From assembly GCF_002305895.1 (NCBI RefSeq), contig NZ_CP022203.1:4504501-4568500 (forward strand): a DNA stretch of 64,000 nt, written 5' to 3'. The notes beneath the pieces were generated by a model. The model saw only the letters and a list, made by a program, of their open reading frames with translations. It made no database searches and was not told the DNA's origin. The position numbers were made by a program, and so were the translations under genes. Shown piece by piece: positions 4,300-16,841 of this stretch. Numbering within the stretch: position 1 is the first letter of the stretch; every line of letters begins with the position of its first letter. Source of the stretch: Corallococcus macrosporus DSM 14697 (GTDB lineage: Bacteria > Myxococcota > Myxococcia > Myxococcales > Myxococcaceae).

Positions 4300-5223
4300 C
4301 TACGCCTTGCCGGCGAAGACGGCCATCACGTCCTTGAGGAGCTTGATGGACTCCTCGTGCGGACGCTGGAAGGCGTTGCGGCCCATGATGGAGCCGAAGC
4401 CGCCACCGGCGTTGATCTGCTTGATCTCCTCCAGGAGGGCGTCGGTGCCCTTGGCCTCGCCGCCGGAGAAGATGACGATGCGCTTGCCGTTGAAGGCGGA
4501 GCGGACGACCTCGCGGACGCGGTCCGCCAGCGTCTTGGTGGCGATGCCGGCCTTCTCGAAGGCCTTCTTGGCCTCGGCCTGCTCGATGTGGTCCTGCGGC
4601 GGCTTCACCTTGATGACGTGGGCGCCGAGCTGGGCGCTGATCTGCGCCGCGTACGCCACCACGTCGATGCCCGTCTCACCCTCCTTGGACAGGTTGCCGC
4701 GGGGGTAGGCCCAGAGGACGGTGGGCAGGCCGTAGGACTTGGCCTCGGCGATGATGTCGCGGAGGTCCTCGTACTGCTCGTTGCGCGCGCCGGAGCCCGG
4801 GTAGATGGTGTAGCCGACGGCGGTGCAGCCCAGGCGGACGGCGTCCTTCACGGAGCTCGTCACCGCGGACATGGGGTTGGCCACCTTGGCCAGGGTGTCG
4901 GAGTTGTTGACCTTGAGGATGAGGGGAATCTCACCCGCGTACTTGCCGGCCACGGCCTCCAGGAAGCCCAGCGGCGCCGCGTAGGCGTTGCAGCCCGACT
5001 CGATGGCCAGCTTGATGTGGTACTCCGGGTCATACCCGGCGGGGTTCGGACCGAAGGAGCGGGCCGGGCCGTGCTCGAAGCCCTGGTCCACCGGGAGGAT
5101 GACGAGCTTGCCCGTGCCGGCCAGCGTGCCGGTGTTCAGCAGCCGGGCCAGGTTGGTCAGCGTGCCGGGGTTGTCGGACGGGTACCACGACAGGATCTGC
5201 TTGACGCGATCGGTATGGGGCAT
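4300..5223 (-). CDS. Class I fructose-bisphosphate aldolase (FbaB/DhnA type)
   Basis: A cytosolic aldolase of glycolysis and gluconeogenesis that cleaves fructose 1,6-bisphosphate through a Schiff base. The 307-residue protein matches the archaeal-type/FbaB family: LVILPVDQGFEHGP near residues 40-53, the Schiff-base lysine region HVIKVKPP at about 202-209, and the phosphate-binding ends IFSGGEAKG and GGGFGSIMGRNAFQR. ATG 5223 (MPHTDRV) has AGAGGA just upstream; the longer frame from 5268 has no such site and adds residues that are not family-like. It is convergent with the tRNA-Ala units and divergent from the TolC-like gene. Confidence 0.93.
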   Translation of the reverse strand: MPHTDRVKQILSWYPSDNPGTLTNLARLLNTGTLAGTGKLVILPVDQGFEHGPARSFGPNPAGYDPEYHIKLAIESGCNAYAAPLGFLEAVAGKYAGEIPLILKVNNSDTLAKVANPMSAVTSSVKDAVRLGCTAVGYTIYPGSGARNEQYEDLRDIIAEAKSYGLPTVLWAYPRGNLSKEGETGIDVVAYAAQISAQLGAHVIKVKPPQDHIEQAEAKKAFEKAGIATKTLADRVREVVRSAFNGKRIVIFSGGEAKGTDALLEEIKQINAGGGFGSIMGRNAFQRPHEESIKLLKDVMAVFAGKA

Positions 5224-5447
5224 GTGTGGGGATCCTCTGTCTCGGGAACAGGGCGCAATCTGCTGCATGCGTCACGTCCCACCAACTCCTTTTCACGCGC
5301 GAGTGTCACGGGTTCCACGACAGGACGCCTCCCCATGCCTTCCGGCCCGCGATTGGGACGAACAACACCGGTGACGGCTCGCTGGCGAACGGACATGCTG
5401 CGCCGCCGTGGGGTTCTCGGATATGGGGAGCCGCACAAGGCGGGTTG

Positions 5448-7229
5448 ATGCGCGGACACCTGGATCATGGCGTGACAATGGCGCTGGCGCTCGCGGCGGG
5501 AGTGGCCGCCGCGCAGCTCACCCCCGGCTCGGTGGGGACGGGGAGCGGCCCCTCGACCAGCCCCGGCGGCACCCCGGGCACGGCCGCCCCATCGCCGACG
5601 CCGGGCACCTCGCCTTCGCCTGGCGCACCCGAAACGGTGACGCCCGACGCGGTGACGCCCGGCTCGGACGCGCCCGCGGCAGTCCCCGGCACGGGGAGCC
5701 CGGGTGGCACGCGGCCCACGCCTCGGGTGGGCACCGGCGGTCCGGACCTGCCGCCGGGACCGCCGCCCATGGCGCCCAGCTCCATCGAACAGACGCCTGG
5801 CGCCAATGGAGGCGGCCCGGCCATCTCCCCCGCGCCCGCCGTGGCGCCCGGCCAGGAGGCGGAGAGCGCGAAGGACACGGTGGCGGACGCGCCTGACTCG
5901 GACGCGAAGCAGCCCGCGCGCCCGGCGCCCCTGACGTTGGCGCGGCTGGTGGCGCGCGCCCGTGAGACGGACTCCCGGGTGGAGGAGGCCAGCGCGGAGC
6001 TGCGCAAGTTCCACGCGCTCTACCAACAGGCGAAGTGGGCCTGGTTCCCCAAGTTCGAAATCACCGTGGGCGCGGGAGGCCCCATCCCCGAGGCCCGCAA
6101 CGACGGGCTGGGCGGCCCGCCCACGACGGAGGCCTCGTTGGAGGGCGACCTCAACTTCGGCCGCGTCGGCGTGACGGTGTTCTCCACCGGCAACGCGGTG
6201 CTGCCGCTCTACACGTTCGGCAAGCTGACGGCGCTGGAGAAGGCCGGCGCGCAGGGGCCGGTGGTGGGCGCCGCGCTGCGGGAGCGCATGCGCGACGAGG
6301 TCGGCTTCCAGGCCGCGCAGGCGTACTTTGGCTACCAGCTCGCGCGAAGCGGCCTGCAGCAGATTGAGGAGGTGGCCAGGCGGCTGGAGGACGCGGCCGG
6401 GCGCATCGACCGGCTGTTGAAGGAGGACTCCGCGCAGGTGTCCGCCGTGGACTCGTACAAGGTCCGCTTCTTCCGGGAGCTGGTGGAGGCGCGCAAGGCG
6501 GAGGCCCTGCAGGGCCGTCAGCTCGCGCTCGCCGCCATCGGCCTGCTGGCCAACGCCGGCCCGGAGGAGCCCGTGGCGGTGGTGGAGGAGGACCTGGAGC
6601 TGGAGGAGGACGTGCCGGTGCCCAGCCTGGAGCAGGCGCTGGCGCGGGCGGAGCAGGCCCGGCCCGAGCTGACCGCCATCGCCGCGGGCATCATCGCGCG
6701 GGAGCACGAGGTCTTCATCCGCGAGCGGAGCTACTTCCCGGACCTGGGGCTCGCCGGCTTCTATGACGTGCGCTTCACCACCAGCGCCACGCGGCAGCGC
6801 AGCCCCTTCGCCTTCGACCCGTACAACGACCGCTCCGCCGGCGTGGGCCTGGTGATGCGGGGGACGTTCGACATCCCCATCAAGGATGCCCAGTTGGAGC
6901 AGGCCCGCGCGGAGCTGGACAAGCTGCGCGCGCAGGAGAAGCAGATCCGCGCGGGCATCCGGCTGGAGGTCACCAAGGTGCACGGCGAGCTGGTGGCCGC
7001 CTGGAGCCGCGCCCGCTCCTTCGGCGAGGCGGAGCGCAGCGCGCGCCGGTGGGTGACGGCCGCCTTCACCGCGTTCGACCTGGGAACCGGTGACACGCGT
7101 GACCTGGTGGACGCTTTCACGGCCTATGCCCAGGCTTCAGGTGACAAAGGCAAGAGCTGGCACGACGTTCGGGTGGGCATGGCCGCCCTCGCGCGGGTTA
7201 CCGGGGCGCCGCTGACCCCGGGTGAATAA
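5448..7229 (+). CDS. TolC-family outer-membrane protein with long Pro/Gly/Thr-rich N-terminal linker
   Basis: A secreted 593-residue protein. The signal peptide ends near AAGVAAAQ. Residues 25-160 are a low-complexity stretch rich in Pro, Gly, Thr and Ala. From about 165 (LTLARLVARARETDSRVEEA) two outer-membrane-factor repeats of long helices and beta segments follow, typical of TolC/OEP. Such proteins form trimeric outer-membrane channels for exporters, but no adaptor (HlyD/MFP) is nearby. AAGG lies 7 nt before ATG 5448, so the upstream extension to 5226 is rejected. The next gene, an MlaC-like protein, follows 52 nt later on the same strand, so the two may share a transcript. Confidence 0.88.
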   Translation: MRGHLDHGVTMALALAAGVAAAQLTPGSVGTGSGPSTSPGGTPGTAAPSPTPGTSPSPGAPETVTPDAVTPGSDAPAAVPGTGSPGGTRPTPRVGTGGPDLPPGPPPMAPSSIEQTPGANGGGPAISPAPAVAPGQEAESAKDTVADAPDSDAKQPARPAPLTLARLVARARETDSRVEEASAELRKFHALYQQAKWAWFPKFEITVGAGGPIPEARNDGLGGPPTTEASLEGDLNFGRVGVTVFSTGNAVLPLYTFGKLTALEKAGAQGPVVGAALRERMRDEVGFQAAQAYFGYQLARSGLQQIEEVARRLEDAAGRIDRLLKEDSAQVSAVDSYKVRFFRELVEARKAEALQGRQLALAAIGLLANAGPEEPVAVVEEDLELEEDVPVPSLEQALARAEQARPELTAIAAGIIAREHEVFIRERSYFPDLGLAGFYDVRFTTSATRQRSPFAFDPYNDRSAGVGLVMRGTFDIPIKDAQLEQARAELDKLRAQEKQIRAGIRLEVTKVHGELVAAWSRARSFGEAERSARRWVTAAFTAFDLGTGDTRDLVDAFTAYAQASGDKGKSWHDVRVGMAALARVTGAPLTPGE

Positions 7230-7281
7230 CCATGCGCTCACCACTGTCTTCCCTACCGTCCTTTCACTCGGAGCCCATGGA

Positions 7282-7887
7282 ATGATTGCTTCCCTGCTTG
7301 CCGCCACCTTGCTCGCCGCCGCGCCCGGCCCGCTGACGGTCGTCAAATCCGGGAACGCCGACGTACAGAAGGCCGCCAACGCGCCCGGCGCCACCGCGCA
7401 GTCGCTCGCCAGCGTCGTGGAGAAGTTCGTCGACTTCGAGGAGCTGGCGAAGCGTGCGCTGGGTGACAAGGCCTGGGCCGACCTCAAGCCCGCGCAGCGC
7501 AAGGAGTTCACCGACACGATGACGGGCCTCCTGCGCGCGTCCTACGCCCAGAAGGCCCTGGGGCAGGCGCAGGCCCAGGTGAAGTACGGCGAGGAGGGCG
7601 TGGACGGGAACGAGGCCACCGTGGGCACCACCGTGAAGGTGAAGAAGGACGCCATCCCCGTCGACTACCGCCTGTACCGCACGTCGGCGACCGGGCCGTG
7701 GCGCATCTACGACGTCGTCACCGACGAGGTGTCCCTGGTGGACACGTACAAGGGGCAGTTCCGCAAGCTGCTCGCCGACAAGGGCTTCGACGGCCTGCTC
7801 TCCACGCTGAAGAGCAAGCGGGCGCAGCTCGAAAAGGAGAACGCGGCGTCGGCGCAGAAGAGCGCCGGGCAGACGGCCGTGCCCTGA
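7282..7887 (+). CDS. MlaC/Ttg2D-family periplasmic lipid carrier protein
   Basis: A secreted 201-residue protein of the MlaC (Ttg2D, HpnM) family. A short signal peptide (MIASLLAATLLAA) is followed by the family pattern ASVVEKFVDFEELAKRALG, the LKPAQRKEFTDTM helix and a beta region ending WRIYDVVTDEVSLVDTYKG. Family members carry phospholipids, or hopanoids in the HpnM case, across the periplasm. GGAG at 7270-7273 supports ATG 7282. The rest of an Mla system (MlaD, MlaE, MlaF) is absent, while an HpnN-like transporter and ceramide genes are close, so a non-phospholipid cargo is possible. Confidence 0.85.
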   Translation: MIASLLAATLLAAAPGPLTVVKSGNADVQKAANAPGATAQSLASVVEKFVDFEELAKRALGDKAWADLKPAQRKEFTDTMTGLLRASYAQKALGQAQAQVKYGEEGVDGNEATVGTTVKVKKDAIPVDYRLYRTSATGPWRIYDVVTDEVSLVDTYKGQFRKLLADKGFDGLLSTLKSKRAQLEKENAASAQKSAGQTAVP

Positions 7888-7911
7888 CGCGGACAGACGG
7901 CGCCACCGTCC

Positions 7912-7943
7912 AGGCCGGGGTGCCCGCGCGGGCGCCTCGGCCT
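7912..7943. terminator. Hairpin between convergent genes, probable terminator
   Basis: A 14-bp stem (7912-7925 with 7930-7943, two G:U pairs) and loop GCGC sits between the stop codons of the MlaC-like gene and the facing SDR gene. There is no T run, so termination strength is uncertain. Confidence 0.5.
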
Positions 7944-7951
7944 TCGTGCTT

Positions 7952-8953
7952 CTAGCGTCCCGCGGCCTCGCGGAGGGCGGCCAGCGTCCCGGCCAGACCC
8001 TGGGCCAGGGGGATGGTGGGGAGGAAGCCCAGCTCGCGGCTCGCGCGCTCGGTGGAGCAGGTCCACGCGGCGCACCGCATCTCCCGCACCTTGTCGCGGT
8101 TGAGGATGGGCACCGTGCCGCGCAGCCGGGCCACGGCCTCCGAGCCCAGGCCCACCACGTAGCTGACCGTCTGCGGCACCGGCAGCACCGCGGGCCGGCC
8201 CTTGCCGAGCGCCCCGGCCATGGCCGCGCAGACGTCCTCCCAGGAGTGCTCCACGCCGTCGGACACGCCGTACACGCCGCGCGCCGGGTCCTCGCTGGAC
8301 ACCGTGGGGCCCCGGTCCGCGGCCGCGAGTAGCGCGGTGCACAGGTCATCCACGTGGATGAGCGAGTACCGCTTGGGCCCGAAGCCGCTCTTCAGCGCCA
8401 GGCCCAGCCGGGCCATGGGCAGCAGCGACGGGAGGAACTCCACGTCACCGGGCCCGTAGACGATGGGCGGCCGGACGATGACGGAGGGCACCCGGTCCGC
8501 GAACTCGCGCACCGCCTCCTCGCCGCCCAGCTTGCTGCGGCCGTAGAGGGACACGGGCGCGGGCGGGTCCTCCTCGCGGCGCGGGCGCTCCGGCGTGGAC
8601 GGGCCCGCGGCGGCCAGCGACGAGCAGTACACCAGCCGGGGCGGGTGGGGCAGGGCGGCCATGGCCTCCACCAGCCGGCGGGTGCCCCGGGCGTTGCCCT
8701 CGAAGTAGCCCTCCGGCTCGCGGGACTTGGTGACGCCGGCCAGGTGCAGCACGCAGTCCACGTCGCGCACGGCCTCGGCCAGGCCCGCCCCCGTCGTCAG
8801 GTCCGCCACCACGAAGCGGGCGCCCAGGCCCTCCAGGGGGCCCCGGCGCGAGCTGCCGCGCACCATCAGCGTGAGCGTGTCGCCGCGCTCCACGATGCGG
8901 CGCGCGAGCCGCTGGCCGATGAACCCGGTGCCGCCAGTGAGCAGGAAGCGCAA
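7952..8953 (-). CDS. Extended SDR, probable 3-ketoceramide reductase (CerR-like)
   Basis: A 333-residue NAD(P)-dependent epimerase/dehydratase. The Rossmann motif TGGTGFIG starts at residue 7, the catalytic Ser is in CSSLAAAGP and the YxxxK motif is in SLYGRSK. In Caulobacter an SDR of this superfamily (CerR) reduces 3-ketoceramide. Here it is the last gene of a minus-strand operon with a serine-palmitoyltransferase-like gene and a GNAT-type acyltransferase, 27 nt behind the latter. That order is the main reason for the ceramide reading; by motifs alone it could be any sugar or steroid-type SDR. Confidence 0.8.
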   Translation of the reverse strand: MRFLLTGGTGFIGQRLARRIVERGDTLTLMVRGSSRRGPLEGLGARFVVADLTTGAGLAEAVRDVDCVLHLAGVTKSREPEGYFEGNARGTRRLVEAMAALPHPPRLVYCSSLAAAGPSTPERPRREEDPPAPVSLYGRSKLGGEEAVREFADRVPSVIVRPPIVYGPGDVEFLPSLLPMARLGLALKSGFGPKRYSLIHVDDLCTALLAAADRGPTVSSEDPARGVYGVSDGVEHSWEDVCAAMAGALGKGRPAVLPVPQTVSYVVGLGSEAVARLRGTVPILNRDKVREMRCAAWTCSTERASRELGFLPTIPLAQGLAGTLAALREAAGR

Positions 8954-8980
8954 GGGTGACTCCTCGGAGGCAGGCGGCGC

Positions 8981-10162
8981 TCAGAGCGCGCGCTGGTAGA
9001 CGCGGTACGTCTTGGAGCGCTGCGCGCCCATGGACTCGATGGCGCGGTTGACCAGGTGGTTGTCCTCGAGCGTCCAGGAGATCTCCCCGCCCACGTAACC
9101 CAGGCGCTTCGCGGTGCGCAGGGTGTCCAGGTACAGGATGGCGTCCAGGCCGCGGCGCCGGTAGCCCTCCTTGATGCCGAGGATGATGAGGCGCAGCCGG
9201 TTGATGCGGCGCGAGGCCAGCGCCAGCTTCACCAGGCCAATGGGCAGGCCAAACGTCGTGAGCCGCCCGTTGGCCGCGCGGATGGCCTGGTTGGCGTCCG
9301 GCACCGTGAGGGAGAAGGCCACCGGCTCGCCCTGGACCTCGGCCATGAGCGCCAGCTCCGGACGGACCACCGTCTTGAGCTCCTTGGCCAGGTGGTCGAA
9401 CTCCGCGTCCGTGAAGGGGACGAAGCCCCAGTTCTTCTCCCACGCCGAGTTGTAGATGTCGCGGATGCGCTTCACCTCGGCGTCCAGGTTCTTCATGTCC
9501 ACCGGGCGCACGACGACGCCGTCGCGCTGGCGGATCTTCTCCGAGATGCGCACCACCTTCTCCGGCGGCTGCGCGGAGGAGGACAGCTCGAAGGCGTACA
9601 AGTCCTTGGCCTTCGTCAGGCCGCAGGCCTCCAGCAGCGCCGCGTAGTAGGGCGGGTTGTGCGGCATCATCACCGCGGGCGGCGAGTCGAAGCCCTCGAT
9701 GAGCAGGCCCCAGTCCTGGTTGGAGGACAGGTTGGCCGGGCCCAGCATCGCGTCCATGCCCCGCTGGCGCAGCCAGGACGCGCCGGCCTCCAGCAGGCTC
9801 CGGGCGACGCCCGCGTCATTCACGCACTCGAAGAGGCCGAAGAAGCCCTCCTTCGTGCCGTGAAGCTCCATGTGACGCGGGTTGCGGATGGCGGCGATGC
9901 GGCCCACCACGTCCGGGCCGCGCCGGGCGAGGAACAGCTCCAGCTCACCGTACTCGAAGAAGGGGTTCTTCTTCGGGTCCAGGAAGTCCCGGCGCTCCAT
10001 CTCCAGCGGGGGGACCCAGTGCGGGTCGTTCTTGTAGAGGGGGTAGGGGAGGCGGATGAACTGCATCCGCTCCGCCTCGCCGCGGACAGGGGTCACCTGC
10101 ACGTCCGACGGCATGGTCGGGGACGCCTGTGTCGGCTGGGACGGCTCGGCGCGGAGGGCCAT
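8981..10162 (-). CDS. GNAT-like N-acyltransferase, probable bacterial ceramide synthase (bCerS-like)
   Basis: A 393-residue soluble protein of the large GNAT-fold family usually annotated N-acetyltransferase. Recognisable parts are the N-terminal RLPYPLYKNDPHWVPP, the central GPANLSSNQDWGLLIEGFD and a C-terminal GNAT core with GIKEGYRRRGLDAILY, whose RRRGxD corresponds to the acyl-CoA loop. In bacteria that make sphingolipids the bCerS enzyme belongs to this family and N-acylates 3-ketosphinganine. The gene begins 7 nt after the Spt-like stop, so the two are surely co-transcribed. A second possible start (MPSDVQV) lies 16 codons downstream; no clear ribosome site decides between them. Confidence 0.82.
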   Translation of the reverse strand: MALRAEPSQPTQASPTMPSDVQVTPVRGEAERMQFIRLPYPLYKNDPHWVPPLEMERRDFLDPKKNPFFEYGELELFLARRGPDVVGRIAAIRNPRHMELHGTKEGFFGLFECVNDAGVARSLLEAGASWLRQRGMDAMLGPANLSSNQDWGLLIEGFDSPPAVMMPHNPPYYAALLEACGLTKAKDLYAFELSSSAQPPEKVVRISEKIRQRDGVVVRPVDMKNLDAEVKRIRDIYNSAWEKNWGFVPFTDAEFDHLAKELKTVVRPELALMAEVQGEPVAFSLTVPDANQAIRAANGRLTTFGLPIGLVKLALASRRINRLRLIILGIKEGYRRRGLDAILYLDTLRTAKRLGYVGGEISWTLEDNHLVNRAIESMGAQRSKTYRVYQRAL

Positions 10163-10169
10163 GGGCGGT

Positions 10170-11708
10170 TCAGTTCCGGTCCGAGTGGGCGCCGTTGCGC
10201 ATGAAGAAGTGGGCGCCCTTCTCCAGCAGCATGCCCGGGAGCTCGCCGCGCTTCTCCCACAGCTTCATGGGCGCCGAGCCCAGCTTGCGCAGGTCCTCCG
10301 GCTGGAGGTTGGCCGCGCGCCAGGTGAGCTGCTCCACCGCGTCGAACAGGCGGCCGGCCACCTCGCGCGAGGACATGCGTGAGAGCTGGTCCAGGGTGAG
10401 GCCGCCCTGGTCCGCCAGCAGGCCGTTCGAGCCCGCGGCCCACTTCTCGCTCGCGCGGTTGGAGAGGATGCGGGTGCCGGGCCGGGCGATCTGCACCGGC
10501 TCGTACACGGTGGGGCGCGTCTCCGGAATCACGCCGAGCTTCCGGCCAATGGACTCGAAGGTGTCCAGCACGCGGTCCAACTGCGCGTCGGTGTGCGTGG
10601 CCATGTACGAGGTGCGGATGAGCGCGTGGCCCGGCTCCACCGCCGGCGGAATCACCGGGTTGGCGAAGACGCCGGCCTCGTGCAGCGCGCGCCAGAAGCG
10701 GAAGCACTTCACCTGGTCACCGATGTGCACCGGCACCACCGGCGTCACCGACACGCCGGTGTCGAAGCCCATGGCGCGGAAGCCGTTGTGCATCTTCTCC
10801 GCGATGTCCAGCAGCCGGGCGCGGCGCTCCGGCTCCGCTTCGATGATCTCCAGGGCCTTGAGCGCCGCGGCGATGGAGCCCGGCGTCATGGACGCGGAGA
10901 AGATGACCGAGCGCGCCTTGTGGCGGATGTAGTTGATGACCTCGAAGGGACCGGCCAGCACGCCGCCCAGCGACGCGAAGCTCTTGGAGAAGGTCCCCAT
11001 GACGAGGTCCGTCTCCTTCTCCAGGTCGAAGTACTCCGAGGTGCCCCGGCCCCGCGCGCCCAGCACGCCCATGGCGTGCGCGTCATCCGTCATCACCCGC
11101 GCGTTGTAGTGCTTCGCCAGCGCCACGATGCGGGGCAGGTTGCAGATGTCACCTTCCATGGAGAAGACGCCGTCGGTGACGATGATCTTCCCCGCGTCCG
11201 GGTCCGCCTGGGACAGGAGCTGCTCCAGGTGGTCCATGTCGTTGTGGCGGAACTTGCGCTCGGTGGCGAAGGACAGGCGGATGCCGTCCACCAGCGACGC
11301 GTGGTTCTGCCGGTCGCTGAAGACGATGTCGTGCCGGCCCAGGATGGACGCCAGCGCCAGGTTCGTCTGGAAGCCCGTGGAGATGACGATGGCGGACTCG
11401 CGGTTGAGGAACTTCGCCAGCCGCGCCTCCAGCTCCTCGTGCAGCGCCAGCGTGCCGTTGAGCAGGCGCGAGCCGGAGCTGGTGGTGCCGAACTTCTCCG
11501 TGGCCTTGATGGCCACTTCCTTCACCCGCGGATCCGCGGACAGGCCCAGGTAGTTGTTGGACCCGACCATGATGACGCGCTTGCCTTCGATCTCCACCTC
11601 GGTGGCGCCGTGCGACGCTTCGATGGCCCGGAAGTACGGGTACAGGCCCGTGGCCTTCGCGATGCGGTAGTCCTTCCAATTACGGCACTTGTCGAAGACG
11701 TCGCTCAT
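10170..11708 (-). CDS. Alpha-oxoamine synthase, probable serine palmitoyltransferase, with C-terminal extension
   Basis: A PLP enzyme of the AOS family (Spt, BioF, KBL, ALAS), which condense an acyl-CoA with an amino acid. The core is residues 1-395: VGSNNYLGL near 48-56, TDDAHAMG with His211, and the PLP lysine in GTFSKSF (Lys242). The glycine-rich switch HxxLVDG and RTSYMATHT are as in Spt. Family members are usually 390-430 aa; this one has about 115 extra residues from VYEPVQIARP to the end, with helices and an aromatic GAHFFMRNG segment. The operon with bCerS-like and CerR-like genes favours serine palmitoyltransferase, the first step of sphingolipid synthesis, over BioF (no bio genes nearby). 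Confidence 0.85.
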   Translation of the reverse strand: MSDVFDKCRNWKDYRIAKATGLYPYFRAIEASHGATEVEIEGKRVIMVGSNNYLGLSADPRVKEVAIKATEKFGTTSSGSRLLNGTLALHEELEARLAKFLNRESAIVISTGFQTNLALASILGRHDIVFSDRQNHASLVDGIRLSFATERKFRHNDMDHLEQLLSQADPDAGKIIVTDGVFSMEGDICNLPRIVALAKHYNARVMTDDAHAMGVLGARGRGTSEYFDLEKETDLVMGTFSKSFASLGGVLAGPFEVINYIRHKARSVIFSASMTPGSIAAALKALEIIEAEPERRARLLDIAEKMHNGFRAMGFDTGVSVTPVVPVHIGDQVKCFRFWRALHEAGVFANPVIPPAVEPGHALIRTSYMATHTDAQLDRVLDTFESIGRKLGVIPETRPTVYEPVQIARPGTRILSNRASEKWAAGSNGLLADQGGLTLDQLSRMSSREVAGRLFDAVEQLTWRAANLQPEDLRKLGSAPMKLWEKRGELPGMLLEKGAHFFMRNGAHSDRN

Positions 11709-12140
11709 GGGTGATCGGTCTTTCTGTCAGGCTGCGTCGGGAGGCATTGGACCGGCCCGGGAGCCTGGGGCTCTCCAGTCGCGACTCCCCCGATGAAGGG
11801 AACGTTCCACGTCGGGGACATCTGCGTCCGGCGGCCTCCCACGGGGGACGCGGGGGCGTGAATAAAGAGGGAGCGCGGCAGTGTCAAGGCAAGCGCCGCG
11901 CCGTCCGTCCCTCTGTCGCCGCCCGTGGCCGGGCTCGGCTTGACAGCACTGAGACTTTGGTGGCACCCCGCCGTCGCACACCCGCTGTTCTCCAGTCGAT
12001 ACTGGAGCGCAAGGTGTGCATCCGGCTGCACACCTGCTGACGGGCGCGTGTGCCTGGAAGCCCTCCGCTTCACCCGCTGTTCCGGGGAGCCACTGACTGG
12101 CCGGGGATTTGCTCCCTCGCTGGTCCCCGAGGAGTCGACG
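11709..12140. other. Divergent intergenic region between the ceramide operon and the RND gene
   Basis: The region separates the minus-strand Spt-like gene from the plus-strand MMPL gene. It holds one convincing promoter, pointing left (11859-11887). A TTGACA at 11940-11945 on the plus strand has no matching -10. The reading frame upstream of the MMPL start is open but Cys/Pro-rich and unlike an RND N-terminus, so I treat it as untranslated. Confidence 0.6.
11859..11887 (-). promoter_or_regulatory. Sigma-70-type promoter for the ceramide operon
   Basis: On the minus strand a perfect TTGACA (11887-11882) and TATTCA (11864-11859) are separated by 17 nt. The start site would fall near 11852, leaving an untranslated leader of about 145 nt before the Spt-like ATG at 11708. 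Confidence 0.65.
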
Positions 12141-14651
12141 TTGGCCAGGTCTCAACGGTGGTTCGAAGGCTTCATCGCGGCGGCGGTCGCTCGCCCGTGG
12201 CGGGTGCTGTGGGTGTTCGCACTGCTCACGCTCGGCGGTATGTCGCTGGCGTCGCGGCTGGAGTTCCGCGGGTCGTTCGTGGAGCTGCTACCGCAGGGCT
12301 CCCCGGAAGTGAGGGACCTGACACGGGTGTCAGAGAAGGCGGGCGGGGACGGCTACCTGGTCCTGGTCGCAAAGGGAGACACGCCCCAGCGCCTGGAGGC
12401 ATACGCGGCCGAATTGCAGACGCAATTGGAAGCGATGCCCGAGGTCCGCTACGTCGAGCACCGCTATGACGTGGACTTCTTCCGTCAAAATGCGTTGCTG
12501 TTATTGCCCATCGAGCAGCTCGCCGCGCTGCGCCAGGACGTGACGGCGCGCGTGCGCTACGAGCGGCAGCGGGCCAACCCCTTCTTCTTTGATTTGGGGG
12601 GCACGCCGGAGCCGCCGGACTTCGAGGCCATCGCGAAGAAGTACGCGCCCGGCGCGCCCATGCGCGAGACGCTGGCCAGCGCGGACGGCACCGAGGTCTA
12701 CTTGATGCTCAAGCCGGCCGGGACGGCGGGAGACCTGGCGTTCGCGCGCGGCTTCGTGGAGCAGGTGATGGGCACCGGGCGCGCGCTGGCGGCGGCGCGG
12801 TATCCCCGCGTGACGCTCCAGGCCACGGGCAACTTCCAGGGCCGCATCGAAGAGGACGCGGTGATGCGCGGCGACCTGTCGCGCGCGGGCCTGCTGTCGG
12901 CACTCATCGCCGTGGGGCTCATCCTGCTGGCGACCCGGCGCGTCGCGGCGCTGGCCGTGGTGGGCCTCCCCGTCATGGTGGGCGTGGTGCTGACGTTCGC
13001 CGCGGCGCAGCTCCTCATCGGCCACCTCAACATCGTGACGGGCTTCCTCGTCGCCATCCTGATTGGCCTGGGCATCGAGTACGGCGTGCACCTGTGCATG
13101 CGGTACTGGGAGGAGCGCCGCGCGCGCCCGGCCCGCGAGGCCATCGCCACGGCGGTGCGCGGCACCTTCGGCGGCGCGCTGACGTCCGCGGTGACGAACG
13201 CCGCGGCCTTCTTCGTGCTGCTGCTGGCGCAGTTCCAGGCCTTCAACCAGTTCGGCCTGCTGGCCGGCCTGGGCGTGCTGCTGGCCGTGCTGGCGACGTA
13301 CGCGATGGGCCCCTCGCTGCTCGCCATCGCGGAGCGACTGCGGCCGGCGCGCGTGGACCCCGCGCCCGCGGCGGATGGCCACGTTGCGCCCCAGGCCCGC
13401 GCGCCTGAGCGGGCGTGGCGGCGCTGGCCCACGGGCGTCATCGTCGCCATCGCCCTGTCGGTGGTGGGCTTCGCCGCGTTCTCCGTCGCCGTGGCGCCCC
13501 AGTTGGGCTTCGAGACGGACATGCGCAAGCTCAAGGGCGAGTCCCCGGCCTCGCGCCTGGATGACCGCGTCACCGAGCAGCTCGGCCAGCCGCTCAACCC
13601 GGCCATCTTCCTGGTGGACGACGTGGCGCAGGCGGCGCAGGTAGAGGCCGTCATCGCCGAGGTGAAGCAGCGCAACGGCGCGGCGTCGGCCTTCCTGGAC
13701 TCCGCGTCCCTCAATGACCTGCTGCCCTCCGACGTGGAGAAGCGCGAGGTGGAGCTGGCCGCGCTGCGCGAGGCCTTCCAGGGGTTGGAGGAGCTGCCCG
13801 CGGAGCTTCGCGAGGACGCGCGGCTTCAGGCGTTCCAGCGGATGCTGGAGGCGAAGCCGTATGGCCTGGACGCGCTGCCGGTGGAGGTGCGCCGCCGCTT
13901 CGAGGCCACGGACGGGAAGGGCACCTTCCTCCTGCTGTTCCCCTCCGTCTCCAACTCCGACACGGAGGAGCTGCGGCGCTGGGCCACGCAGATTGACCAG
14001 GTGGTGGAGGCAGTGGAGGCGCGCGGCATCGACCTGGCGGTGCTGGACAGCAACCGCATCGCCGCCCGCATCTTCGCGCTGGTGAGCGCGGACGGCCCGC
14101 TCATCCTGTGGTCCGCCGCCGCGGTGGTGTTCGTCGTCATCCTCATCAGCCTGCGCAGCTTCAAGCGGGCGCTGCTCGTCACCGGGCCGCTGTTCCTGGG
14201 CATGACGTGCCTGGCGGGCGGCATGTACCTCTTCGACGTCCAGCTCAACTTCATCAACGCCGTGGTGCTGCCCAACCTGCTGGCCATCGCCGTGGACAAC
14301 TCGGTGCACCTCTTCCACCGGTACGAGGAGGAGGGGCCCGGCTCGCTCGGCAAGGTGGTGCGGCACACGGGGCTGGCGGCCGTGGTGGCCACGCTGTCCA
14401 ACGCGGCCGGGTATGGCGCGCTGCTGGTGGCCAACCACCAGGGTCTGCGCAGCATCGGTCAGATTGCGCTGCTGGGGGTCATGTGCACCTTTCTCGGGAC
14501 CACGGTCTTCTTCCCCGCGCTGCTCGCCTTGCTGGAACGATGGAAGGGCGGCAAGGATGCGGGGGCGGGGGAGGGGGCGGTTGTGCAGAGCCTGGAGCTC
14601 GGCGATTCCGGCGCGCGGGCCGCGCCGCCGGGGGAGCGTAAGTCGGCGTGA
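12141..14651 (+). CDS. MMPL/RND-family transporter (HpnN-like)
   Basis: An 836-residue inner-membrane protein with two repeats, each of one TM helix, a large periplasmic loop and five TM helices. The first set begins WRVLWVFALLTLGGMSLA, the second with VIVAIALSVVGFAAFSVAV. Conserved RND features include ILIGLGIEYGVHLCMRY and NLLAIAVDNSVHLFHRY, with the Asp/Glu of proton relay. The architecture resembles HpnN, which moves hopanoids to the outer membrane. GAGGAG at 12129-12134 sits 6 nt before TTG 12141, which fixes the start. The next gene overlaps by 4 nt (GTGA). Given the neighbours, sphingolipid transport is a reasonable guess but unproven. Confidence 0.85.
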   Translation: MARSQRWFEGFIAAAVARPWRVLWVFALLTLGGMSLASRLEFRGSFVELLPQGSPEVRDLTRVSEKAGGDGYLVLVAKGDTPQRLEAYAAELQTQLEAMPEVRYVEHRYDVDFFRQNALLLLPIEQLAALRQDVTARVRYERQRANPFFFDLGGTPEPPDFEAIAKKYAPGAPMRETLASADGTEVYLMLKPAGTAGDLAFARGFVEQVMGTGRALAAARYPRVTLQATGNFQGRIEEDAVMRGDLSRAGLLSALIAVGLILLATRRVAALAVVGLPVMVGVVLTFAAAQLLIGHLNIVTGFLVAILIGLGIEYGVHLCMRYWEERRARPAREAIATAVRGTFGGALTSAVTNAAAFFVLLLAQFQAFNQFGLLAGLGVLLAVLATYAMGPSLLAIAERLRPARVDPAPAADGHVAPQARAPERAWRRWPTGVIVAIALSVVGFAAFSVAVAPQLGFETDMRKLKGESPASRLDDRVTEQLGQPLNPAIFLVDDVAQAAQVEAVIAEVKQRNGAASAFLDSASLNDLLPSDVEKREVELAALREAFQGLEELPAELREDARLQAFQRMLEAKPYGLDALPVEVRRRFEATDGKGTFLLLFPSVSNSDTEELRRWATQIDQVVEAVEARGIDLAVLDSNRIAARIFALVSADGPLILWSAAAVVFVVILISLRSFKRALLVTGPLFLGMTCLAGGMYLFDVQLNFINAVVLPNLLAIAVDNSVHLFHRYEEEGPGSLGKVVRHTGLAAVVATLSNAAGYGALLVANHQGLRSIGQIALLGVMCTFLGTTVFFPALLALLERWKGGKDAGAGEGAVVQSLELGDSGARAAPPGERKSA

Positions 14652-15616
14652 GTGCCTGGTTTTCCCAACGTGTTCGGGGTGTTTCCGCCGTGAGTCCCCC
14701 GCCCGTGGTGCGCGTCCAGCTCACCACGGTGGACCTCATCATCGTGGTGTCCTGCGCGCTGGCGTCGCTGCTGCTGTTGGGGCCGGGACACTGGGCGCCT
14801 GATTCGCTGCGCTGTGCGGGGCTGTTCGCGGTGATGGGCGTGGGGCCGCTCGTCCTGCGGACGCTGGCCGCCTCGTTCCCCGGGCGCCGGTGGCTCCATG
14901 TGCTCGCGGACTGGTGGCTGCTGCCCACGGCGGTGCTGTCGCACGGCTGGCTGGCCCCCGTGGTGGACACCATCAACCCGCTCCTCAAGGACGCGCAGTT
15001 GGTGGCGGCGGACCAGCGGCTCTTCGGCGTGCAGGCGGCGGTGGTGCTGTCGCGCGTCGTCCCCGGCTGGCTCAACGACCTCCTGCTGGTCTGCTACTAC
15101 GGCCACTTCGTGTGGGCGCTGGTGATGGGGCTGGTGCTCTACCGGCGCCCGGGCGGCGCGGAGTACGACGAATACCTCACCGCGCTGGGGTTGCTCTTCT
15201 TCCTCAACTACGCGGCCTACGCGCTGGTGCCGGCGGTGGGGCCCCGCTACTTCCTGGTGGGCGCGTTCGATGGGCCGCTCCAGGGGACGCTGACGCCGCT
15301 GCTGGACTCGCTGATGCGCAAGCCGCTGTTCGCGCGGGACTGCTTCCCGTCGGGGCACACCGGCGCCACGCTGCTGGTGCTGTACTACGCGTGGCGCTTC
15401 TCCCGCCGCGTCTTCTGGGTGATGTTGCTGCCGGGCCTGGGGCTCATCGCCGCCACGCTGGTGGGGCGCTTCCACTACGCCACGGACCTGCTCTGCGCGG
15501 TGCCGCTGGTGATGGTGGTGACGGGGCTGGCCATGGGCGTGTCCCGGGCGGCCCGGCAGCGCGAGGTGGTGAAGGACGCGCGTTCCGTCCCGGTGGACGC
15601 TATCGTCAGGCCCTGA
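14648..15616 (+). CDS. PAP2-superfamily integral membrane protein (Aur1/PAP2_3-like)
   Basis: A 322-residue protein with about seven membrane helices. It carries the PAP2 motifs CFPSGHTGA (the catalytic His region) and GRFHYATD (second His and Asp), but not the classical KxxxxxxRP motif of soluble PAP2 phosphatases. That combination fits the PAP2_3 group, which includes fungal inositol-phosphorylceramide synthase Aur1. It is translationally coupled to the MMPL gene through a GTGA overlap. A lipid phosphatase or a head-group transferase acting on ceramide or another membrane lipid are both possible; the context favours a lipid head-group role. Confidence 0.8.
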   Translation: MSAWFSQRVRGVSAVSPPPVVRVQLTTVDLIIVVSCALASLLLLGPGHWAPDSLRCAGLFAVMGVGPLVLRTLAASFPGRRWLHVLADWWLLPTAVLSHGWLAPVVDTINPLLKDAQLVAADQRLFGVQAAVVLSRVVPGWLNDLLLVCYYGHFVWALVMGLVLYRRPGGAEYDEYLTALGLLFFLNYAAYALVPAVGPRYFLVGAFDGPLQGTLTPLLDSLMRKPLFARDCFPSGHTGATLLVLYYAWRFSRRVFWVMLLPGLGLIAATLVGRFHYATDLLCAVPLVMVVTGLAMGVSRAARQREVVKDARSVPVDAIVRP

Positions 15617-15650
15617 GCCCGGGACCTTCCGGGCGCGAGGAGCCGCCCGC

Positions 15651-16841
15651 ATGTCCAGGCCCGTGGCCGCGCAGCGAGTCACCCGGTTCGCCACCACCGT
15701 CTTCTCCGAGTTCAGCGCCCTGGCCGCCCGCCACGGCGCCGTCAATCTGGGCCAGGGCTTCCCGGACTTCGACGGTCCGGACGCCATCAAGGAGGCGGCG
15801 CGGCGCGCCATCCGCGACGGGGGCAACCAGTACGCCATGGGCGCGGGGGCCCGGGAGCTGCGCGTGGCCATCGCCGAGCACTCGGCGCGCTTCTACGGCC
15901 AGACGGTGGACCCGGACACCATGGTGACGGTGACGAGCGGCGCCACCGAGGCCATCCTCGACACCCTGCTGGGGCTGGTGGACCCGGGCGACGAGGTGGT
16001 GGCCTTCGAGCCCTTCTACGACTCCTACGACGCCAACATCGCCTTCGTGGGGGCCACCGCGCGCTTCGTGCCGCTGCGCCCGCCAGACGCCGGGCACGCG
16101 CGGTGGTGGTTCGACCGGGACGAGGTCCGCGCCGCCTTTGGCCCGCGCACCCGGCTGCTCATCCTCAACACGCCGCACAACCCGACGGGGAAGGTGTTCA
16201 CCCGCGAGGAGCTGGGCTTCCTGGCGGAGCTGTGCGCCGAGTTCGACGTGAAGGTGCTCTCCGACGAGGTGTACGAGCACATCGTCTTCGAGCCCGCGCG
16301 CCACCTGCGCCCGGCCACGCTGCCCGGGCTGGCCGAGCGCACGGTGACGGTGAGCAGCGGCGGCAAGACGTTCAGCCTCACGGGGTGGAAGGTGGGCTGG
16401 GTCATCGCGCCGCCGGCGCTGCGGGACGCGGTGCAGCGGGCCCACCAGTTCGTCACCTTCGCCACCGCGGCGCCGCTCCAGGCGGCCATGGCGGAGGCGC
16501 TGCGGCTGCCGGACGCGTACTTCGCGGAGCTGGCGTCGTCCTACGCGGCGAAGCGGGGGCGGCTGCTCACCGGGCTGCGTGAGGCGGGGCTGACGCCCTT
16601 CGCGCCGGAGGGCAGCTACTTCATCCTCGCGGACATCACGCGCCAGGGCTTCGCGGATGACGTGGCCTTCTGCCGGCACCTGGTGTCCGAGGTGGGCGTG
16701 GCGGCCATTCCGCCCAGTGTCTTCTACAGCCCCGAGCACCGCCCCCTGGGGCAGGGGCTGGCCCGCTTCGCGTTCTGCAAGACGGAGGCGGTGCTGGATG
16801 AGGCCGTGCGCCGGCTGCGCGCGGGCCTGACGCCGCGATGA
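15651..16841 (+). CDS. PLP-dependent class I/II aminotransferase
   Basis: A 396-residue fold-type I aminotransferase close to the kynurenine/methionine aminotransferase (YbdL) subgroup. NLGQGFPDFDGP near residue 32, the TSGATEAI helix, LNTPHNPTGK (the Asn and PLP-ring region), DEVYEHIVF, and the PLP lysine in SSGGKTFSLTGWKVGW. The substrate is not clear from sequence; transamination of aromatic or sulphur amino acids, or of branched-chain ones, is possible. It starts 34 nt after the PAP2 gene and its stop overlaps the next start (ATGA), so it belongs to the same plus-strand run of genes. Confidence 0.88.
   Translation: MSRPVAAQRVTRFATTVFSEFSALAARHGAVNLGQGFPDFDGPDAIKEAARRAIRDGGNQYAMGAGARELRVAIAEHSARFYGQTVDPDTMVTVTSGATEAILDTLLGLVDPGDEVVAFEPFYDSYDANIAFVGATARFVPLRPPDAGHARWWFDRDEVRAAFGPRTRLLILNTPHNPTGKVFTREELGFLAELCAEFDVKVLSDEVYEHIVFEPARHLRPATLPGLAERTVTVSSGGKTFSLTGWKVGWVIAPPALRDAVQRAHQFVTFATAAPLQAAMAEALRLPDAYFAELASSYAAKRGRLLTGLREAGLTPFAPEGSYFILADITRQGFADDVAFCRHLVSEVGVAAIPPSVFYSPEHRPLGQGLARFAFCKTEAVLDEAVRRLRAGLTPR

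Follow-up and report, generated by a model that had tools for sequence, protein, structure and literature searches.

A candidate sphingolipid synthesis, head-group and transport locus of the Myxococcaceae in Corallococcus macrosporus DSM 14697

Ceramide is a fat found more typically in animals and yeast. In Caulobacter crescentus, a single region (CC_1168-CC_1152) holds genes for sphingolipid synthesis, decoration and putative transport, and the authors describing it state that the route of bacterial sphingolipids to the outer membrane is not understood (PMC11324152). Here, we analyzed a 64,000-nucleotide stretch of Corallococcus macrosporus DSM 14697 (referred to as the window; positions 4504501 to 4568500 of the complete 8,973,512-bp genome), whose relatives are Myxococcaceae. 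The window contains seven genes that we read as a Myxococcaceae sphingolipid locus, in which ceramide synthesis, head-group addition and trans-envelope transport would be encoded in three adjoining units. We give this reading as a whole a probability of about 0.5. Ceramide synthesis is its best supported part.

All seven genes listed in a preliminary description of the window were confirmed at their positions by domain and family profile searches (window coordinates; an eighth gene that follows them is also given):

5448..7229, plus strand: TolC/OEP-like outer membrane protein whose N-terminal stretch is rich in Pro/Gly (PF02321, 1.5e-32), kept beside MlaC in Myxococcaceae
7282..7887, plus strand: MlaC/HpnM-like periplasmic carrier with a signal peptide (PF05494, 1.4e-36; 126 bits, cut-off 26)
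7952..8953, minus strand: short-chain dehydrogenase/reductase (SDR), probable ceramide reductase, CerR-like (PF01370, 1.7e-35)
8981..10162, minus strand: GNAT acyltransferase of 393 amino acids (aa), bCerS/CerS/YghO family (PF00583)
10170..11708, minus strand: Spt, an alpha-oxoamine synthase (AOS) with a C-terminal extension of ~115 aa (NF047600, 3.9e-152)
12123..14651, plus strand: MMPL/HpnN-like RND protein, putative lipid transporter (PF03176, 4.4e-42; TIGR03480, 2.2e-78)
14648..15616, plus strand: AUR1-like PAP2_3 membrane protein, candidate ceramide head-group transferase (PF14378, 1.1e-13, 51.8 bits)
15651-16841, after PAP2: ordinary class I aminotransferase

The three units are OEP-MlaC (plus strand), Spt-GNAT-SDR (minus strand) and MMPL-PAP2 (plus strand). 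The OEP and MlaC frames overlap, the genes of the middle unit are separated by 7 and 27 bp, and MMPL and PAP2 overlap by 4 bp. Because the stretches upstream of the MMPL and MlaC genes hold stop codons in relatives, we moved the two starts to about 12123 and to 7282, respectively; the longest MlaC frame, from 7222, is too long, as close relatives have a stop within its first 20 codons. The seven-gene cluster is kept in the 27 genomes of the genus searched, with the SDR absent in 2 of the 27 and the cluster split in a few fragmented assemblies. As the genes stay together across these genomes, their arrangement is not due to chance, and conservation of the neighborhood also rules out chance adjacency of the ceramide core and PAP2.

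In the proposed pathway, Spt would condense serine with a fatty acyl thioester, after which the GNAT would N-acylate the product and the SDR would reduce its keto group, in either order, to yield dihydroceramide. The AUR1-like PAP2 protein would then transfer a phospho-head group, most likely from phosphatidylethanolamine, to the ceramide, releasing diacylglycerol. Finally, the HpnN-like RND protein may use the proton gradient to lift the finished lipid out of the inner membrane and hand it to the MlaC-like carrier, with the TolC-like protein serving as the outer-membrane acceptor or as its organizer.

Ceramide synthesis genes

The window Spt matches the Sphingobacterium multivorum SPT (SmSPT) with an E value of 6e-115 and 48% identity over 381 positions, and it is identical at 5/5 of the active-site positions compared (SmSPT H138, D210, H213, K244 and R367, including the pyridoxal phosphate [PLP] lysine). 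Its score against the NCBIfam model NF047600 is 506.5 bits, under the curated cut-off of 640, a shortfall that would be expected if the protein were Kbl, BioF or a cysteate-using enzyme rather than an SPT. We consider this very unlikely, given that SPT models are the top-scoring ones, that solved SPTs are by far the best matches, that the SPT active-site residues are kept and that GNAT and SDR share the operon. Furthermore, spt genes beside GNAT in other lineages likewise score 479 to 537 bits, which indicates that the cut-off leaves out a whole branch, and the Myxococcus xanthus enzyme has been counted among the SPTs, in the Bacteroidetes/delta subgroup (PMC9386255).

Within Myxococcota, families f1, f5, f6, f9 and f28 (working numbers) have Spt-GNAT-SDR neighborhoods, and f2 has Spt-GNAT. 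The C-terminal extension of Spt (window 10170-10520) is common to f1, f2, f5 and f6 and absent in f9 and f28. Public genomes were scanned for GNAT relatives, of which 568 were confirmed and the best 80 (closest to the window GNAT) were kept, many of them on short contigs. The three genes also lie together in Ignavibacteria, Zixibacteria, Gemmatimonadota, Bacteroidota, Acidobacteriota and others: among 71 loci labeled as other phyla, Spt is within reach in 47, and an SDR adjoins spt/GNAT in 36 of these. One locus listed as Pseudomonadota (L156) is counted here as Myxococcota (f6, genome G035). Fatty-acid hydroxylase genes (PF04116) adjoin spt at 10 loci in several phyla and likely encode ceramide hydroxylases.

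The window GNAT is 41% identical (residues 11 to 393) to a Roseomonas mucosa protein whose gene occupies the CerS position of a ceramide locus, flanked by LptF/LptG-sterol desaturase on one side and an NTP transferase on the other; SPT and acyl carrier protein (ACP) are encoded nearby. Alongside ACP and SPT, this plasmid locus encodes a diacylglycerol-kinase-family protein, the permeases LptF and LptG, a sterol desaturase and an NTP transferase (CpgB-, CpgD- and LptF/G-like genes), a gene content much as described for Caulobacter (PMC11324152). A YghO-annotated protein adjoining an AOS is 38% identical to the window GNAT, and a sequence search yielded no clear relative among solved structures. 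The Roseomonas match supports placement of the window GNAT, by sequence, in the bacterial ceramide synthase family. GNAT is not a strict marker of Spt: it occurs in 144 of 195 Myxococcota genomes, and an AOS (E value of 1e-80 or better) in only 95. Two GNAT copies, in tandem or separated by the SDR, are present at eight loci in several Myxococcaceae, and the duplicates perhaps differ in acyl or base preference.

The window SDR begins directly at the Rossmann motif, with no signal peptide seen; CerR of Caulobacter is located in the periplasm (PMC11087976). Taken together, the Spt residues, the conservation of the trio across phyla and the match of the GNAT to the gene at the CerS position in an alphaproteobacterium make Spt-GNAT-SDR an operon of known kind. 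Its predicted role in making dihydroceramide is well supported, in line with the sphingolipid synthesis proposed in the preliminary description.

The AUR1-like PAP2 protein

Of the 70 Myxococcota genomes with a close PAP2 (E value below 1e-45), 68 carry Spt as well, and 66 have the two genes within 10 kb of each other (co-occurrence was counted by hand). The two genomes that lack Spt have a completeness of 69% and 86%. Conversely, about 68 of the 86 Spt genomes have a close PAP2. The expected co-occurrence of the gene families with spt was thus borne out for PAP2, and for the transport trio only in part (see below). A PAP2 gene is also found in or beside the ceramide operon at three loci each in Acidobacteriota and Gemmatimonadota and likewise in Bacterium HR33, and it lies beside GNAT on a Latescibacterota contig.

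When a profile of 14 PAP2 proteins was compared with the PDB, fungal AUR1 came first (1.2e-6). The predicted model of the window protein (pLDDT of 90.5) also matches AUR1 best (Z of 20.2 over 256 residues), followed by LpxE (Z of 15.4 over 163 residues) and human SMSr (Z of 11.4). The motifs FPSxH and HYxxD are invariant in the alignment, with H237, H276 and D280 as the invariant His/His/Asp set, and no Lys or Arg is invariant. The C1 and C3 motifs of PAP2-type phosphatases carry invariant Lys/Arg. Members of this superfamily are often phosphatases, and LpxE and PgpB rank next among the folds, so that a lipid phosphatase acting on ceramide-1-phosphate or another phospholipid has to be weighed. 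As AUR1 tops both the profile and the fold searches, clearly ahead in the latter, and as the Lys/Arg of phosphatases are not among the invariant residues, a transferase is likelier and a phosphatase unlikely. From family, fold and gene tracking, the window PAP2 is likely an AUR1-like ceramide head-group transferase.

Which head group it would transfer is suggested by a second locus. M. xanthus reportedly produces a ceramide phospholipid (Lorenzen 2014, cited in PMC9246714), which agrees with the proposed pathway. The same work is cited there for ceramide phosphoinositol in this species, the synthesis of which could be assigned to the window PAP2 on the basis of its AUR1-like fold. However, a separate cluster at ~567.4-570.9 kb (L290:3873-7354; genome 567372-570853) has genes for inositol-1-phosphate synthase, an AUR1-like PAP2 and a PIP-synthase-like protein in a row. 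Against NF052609, the model for phosphoinositol dihydroceramide synthase, the PAP2 of this cluster scores 139.6 bits, whereas the window PAP2 shows no match up to an E value of 1. The cluster thus likely comprises the inositol-lipid and ceramide phosphoinositol genes, and its presence elsewhere in the genome, together with the absent NF052609 match, makes it rather improbable that the window PAP2 is the ceramide phosphoinositol synthase of Myxococcus or a BT_1522-type inositol enzyme. Most likely, the window PAP2 would use a donor other than an inositol lipid, with phosphatidylethanolamine favored. About 8 kb away from the cluster, at 554.6-559.9 kb, is a pair of MMPL paralogues.

The idea that PAP2 decorates ceramides is therefore upheld as likely, for an AUR1-like protein that tracks spt, with the qualification that the inositol-lipid genes lie elsewhere. 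For the same reason, the locus cannot be called complete, as it had been in the preliminary description.

Transport genes and their linkage to spt

The nearest named families of the MMPL and MlaC-like proteins are HpnN and HpnM, which would imply hopanoid or sterol transport. The scores are far under the cut-offs: MMPL reaches 264 bits against the HpnN model TIGR03480 (cut-off 752) and 152 bits against NF052374 (cut-off 1100), and the MlaC-like protein reaches 81 bits against the HpnM model TIGR03481 (cut-off 160) and 41 bits against the MlaC equivalog (cut-off 195). In addition, the complete genome has no match to the squalene/oxidosqualene cyclase N-terminal domain (SQHop_cyclase_N, PF13249), which excludes a hopanoid or cyclized sterol cargo as far as a domain search can tell. 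We regard an HpnN/HpnM role as extremely unlikely.

Orthologues of the window MMPL (at least 66%) adjoin spt in 59 Myxococcaceae genomes, and the linkage between transporter and spt is kept over the core Myxococcaceae, in at least seven genera. Family f5 also has an MMPL-MlaC-OEP set within ~10 kb of spt, at five loci. The MMPL tree separates the spt-side MMPL proteins of f1 and f5 with full support, showing that the f5 set is nonorthologous. Together with the absences described below, this rules out a single orthologous transporter in all spt carriers. Since two nonorthologous transporter sets adjoin ceramide genes, a functional link is favored.

A Gfo/Idh/MocA oxidoreductase and a class III aminotransferase accompany the f5 set, also away from spt (at two loci). 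In f5 and others, this gene pair was seen beside MMPL-MlaC-OEP at seven loci, and the same two genes stand beside ceramide genes at two Gemmatimonadota loci. The pair perhaps points to an amino-polyol head group.

Several observations weigh against a dedicated sphingolipid locus. Transport genes were not found near spt in families f6 and f9 or in six Myxococcaceae genera. Outside Myxococcota, the trio was not found near spt within the best 80 of the 568 GNAT loci, an absence that is weak evidence because only these nearest loci were kept and many contigs are short. Besides the window copies, the genome encodes three further MMPL proteins and another MlaC-MMPL pair (L132), with two MlaC genes in total; family f3 has MMPL-MlaC-OEP without spt, and paralogous transporter sets without spt are found at L132, L144 and L145. 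Such paralogous sets, and the lack of the trio in many spt carriers, argue for a general module that was recruited. Lastly, the local SDR orthologue (at least 55%) is missing in five genera and three genomes that retain Spt and GNAT. An SDR paralogue of ~35-41% occurs in nearly all genomes and may perform the ketone reduction where the local SDR has been lost.

It is quite possible, then, that MMPL, the MlaC-like protein and OEP form a general envelope-lipid exporter, for glycerophospholipids or other lipids, which became a neighbor of the ceramide operon once, in an ancestor of the core Myxococcaceae, so that the adjacency is inherited and not functional. The L132 pair, the f3 set, MMPL relatives of 46-52% in genomes without a close Spt and the lack of tracking outside Myxococcota all fit this explanation. 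It sits less easily with a linkage that is kept over at least seven genera while SDR, MMPL and PAP2 come and go, with the second, nonorthologous set adjoining spt in f5 and with the SPT-like protein that relatives lacking an active Spt retain next to MlaC/OEP. On balance, sphingolipid transport by the MMPL/MlaC/TolC-like trio is plausible, at close to even odds. The transport role first proposed for the flanking genes agrees with their linkage to spt in core Myxococcaceae and does not extend to the many spt carriers from which they are absent.

The Spt-less relatives provide two further observations. In Myxococcaceae genera without a close Spt, we found a fused polyketide synthase (PKS)-AOS protein of ~2,300 aa with KS, AT, KR, DH and AOS domains (L282:1880-8773, L283, L284, L285:4045-10905, L286:4725-11681 and L288), located within ~10 kb of a bCerS-like GNAT in 7 of 10 genomes. 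By analogy with sphinganine synthesis by the PKS-AOS system SgaA/SgaB of Pseudomonas fluorescens MYb115 (PMC12134224), the fusion is likely an alternative sphingoid-base synthase. SgaA/SgaB are two proteins, whereas the myxobacterial PKS-AOS is one fused protein encoded outside the window locus.

In addition, seven loci from six genera encode SPT-like proteins that lack the PLP lysine motif and keep the C-terminal extension. Their frames are intact, and most of the genes adjoin MlaC, one of them lying between MlaC and MMPL. The lysine-less proteins group with Myxococcaceae Spt (SH-aLRT of 97, in a quick tree with long branches). Between two species, their dN/dS ratio is 0.165, like that of the neighboring MlaC (0.17), which indicates that they are under selection. 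By analogy with eukaryotic SPTLC1, they may act as structural or regulatory partners. As a tentative scenario, sets of HpnN-like RND, MlaC-like and TolC-like proteins would have been recruited in Myxococcota on two or more occasions, each from a different paralogue group, as trans-envelope exporters dedicated to sphingolipids. In the PKS-AOS relatives, selection would have preserved the dead SPT next to the exporter genes, where it may act as a docking or regulatory subunit; this scenario is doubtful in its present form.

Comparison with described systems

The individual parts of the locus resemble several characterized systems. The window PAP2 is like the AUR1 inositol phosphorylceramide synthase and BT_1522 in its PAP2_3 family, near full-length fold, FPSxH/HYxxD motifs and ceramide-gene neighborhood, and it differs from BT_1522, a phosphoinositol dihydroceramide synthase, in lacking the NF052609 match and in that the genome has a better inositol candidate elsewhere. 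With HpnN/HpnM of hopanoid clusters, the locus shares the combination of an MMPL-type RND protein and an MlaC-type carrier; beyond the low scores and the missing cyclase, it is set apart by the adjoining TolC-like partner and ceramide genes. The RND sterol transporter BstA has its family in common with the window MMPL, which scores 230 bits, far under the cut-off of 1400, in a genome without a sterol cyclase match.

If the proposed functions hold, the locus offers a small, non-Lpt candidate set for sphingolipid transport in a genus with good genetics. It also allows two AUR1-like enzymes of the same genome to be told apart, of which one likely serves inositol and the other a different head group. 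From the link of PAP2 to the ceramide operons of at least three phyla, an enzyme that adds head groups to ceramide is predicted to be widespread in bacteria.

The closest counterpart of the locus as a whole is CC_1168-CC_1152 of Caulobacter. The preliminary description knew of no system uniting these parts; the Caulobacter region does unite the three tasks (PMC11324152), albeit with Lpt-type transport genes. Both loci have spt, cerS (GNAT) and cerR, together with head-group genes and genes for putative transport from the inner to the outer membrane. Only the Caulobacter region has ACP and acyl-ACP synthetase genes, a ceramide kinase, phosphoglycerate head groups, LptC2/F2/G2 and a flippase; none of acpR, aasR, cpg and lptF2/G2 is found among the proteins at window 4357-16841, and distant AcpR/AasR homologues have been described elsewhere in the M. 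xanthus genome (PMC9386255). The AUR1-like PAP2, the HpnN-like RND protein, the MlaC-like carrier and the TolC-like protein are in turn particular to the window. Compared with Caulobacter, the locus is new in the types of transport and head-group genes that accompany the ceramide operon.

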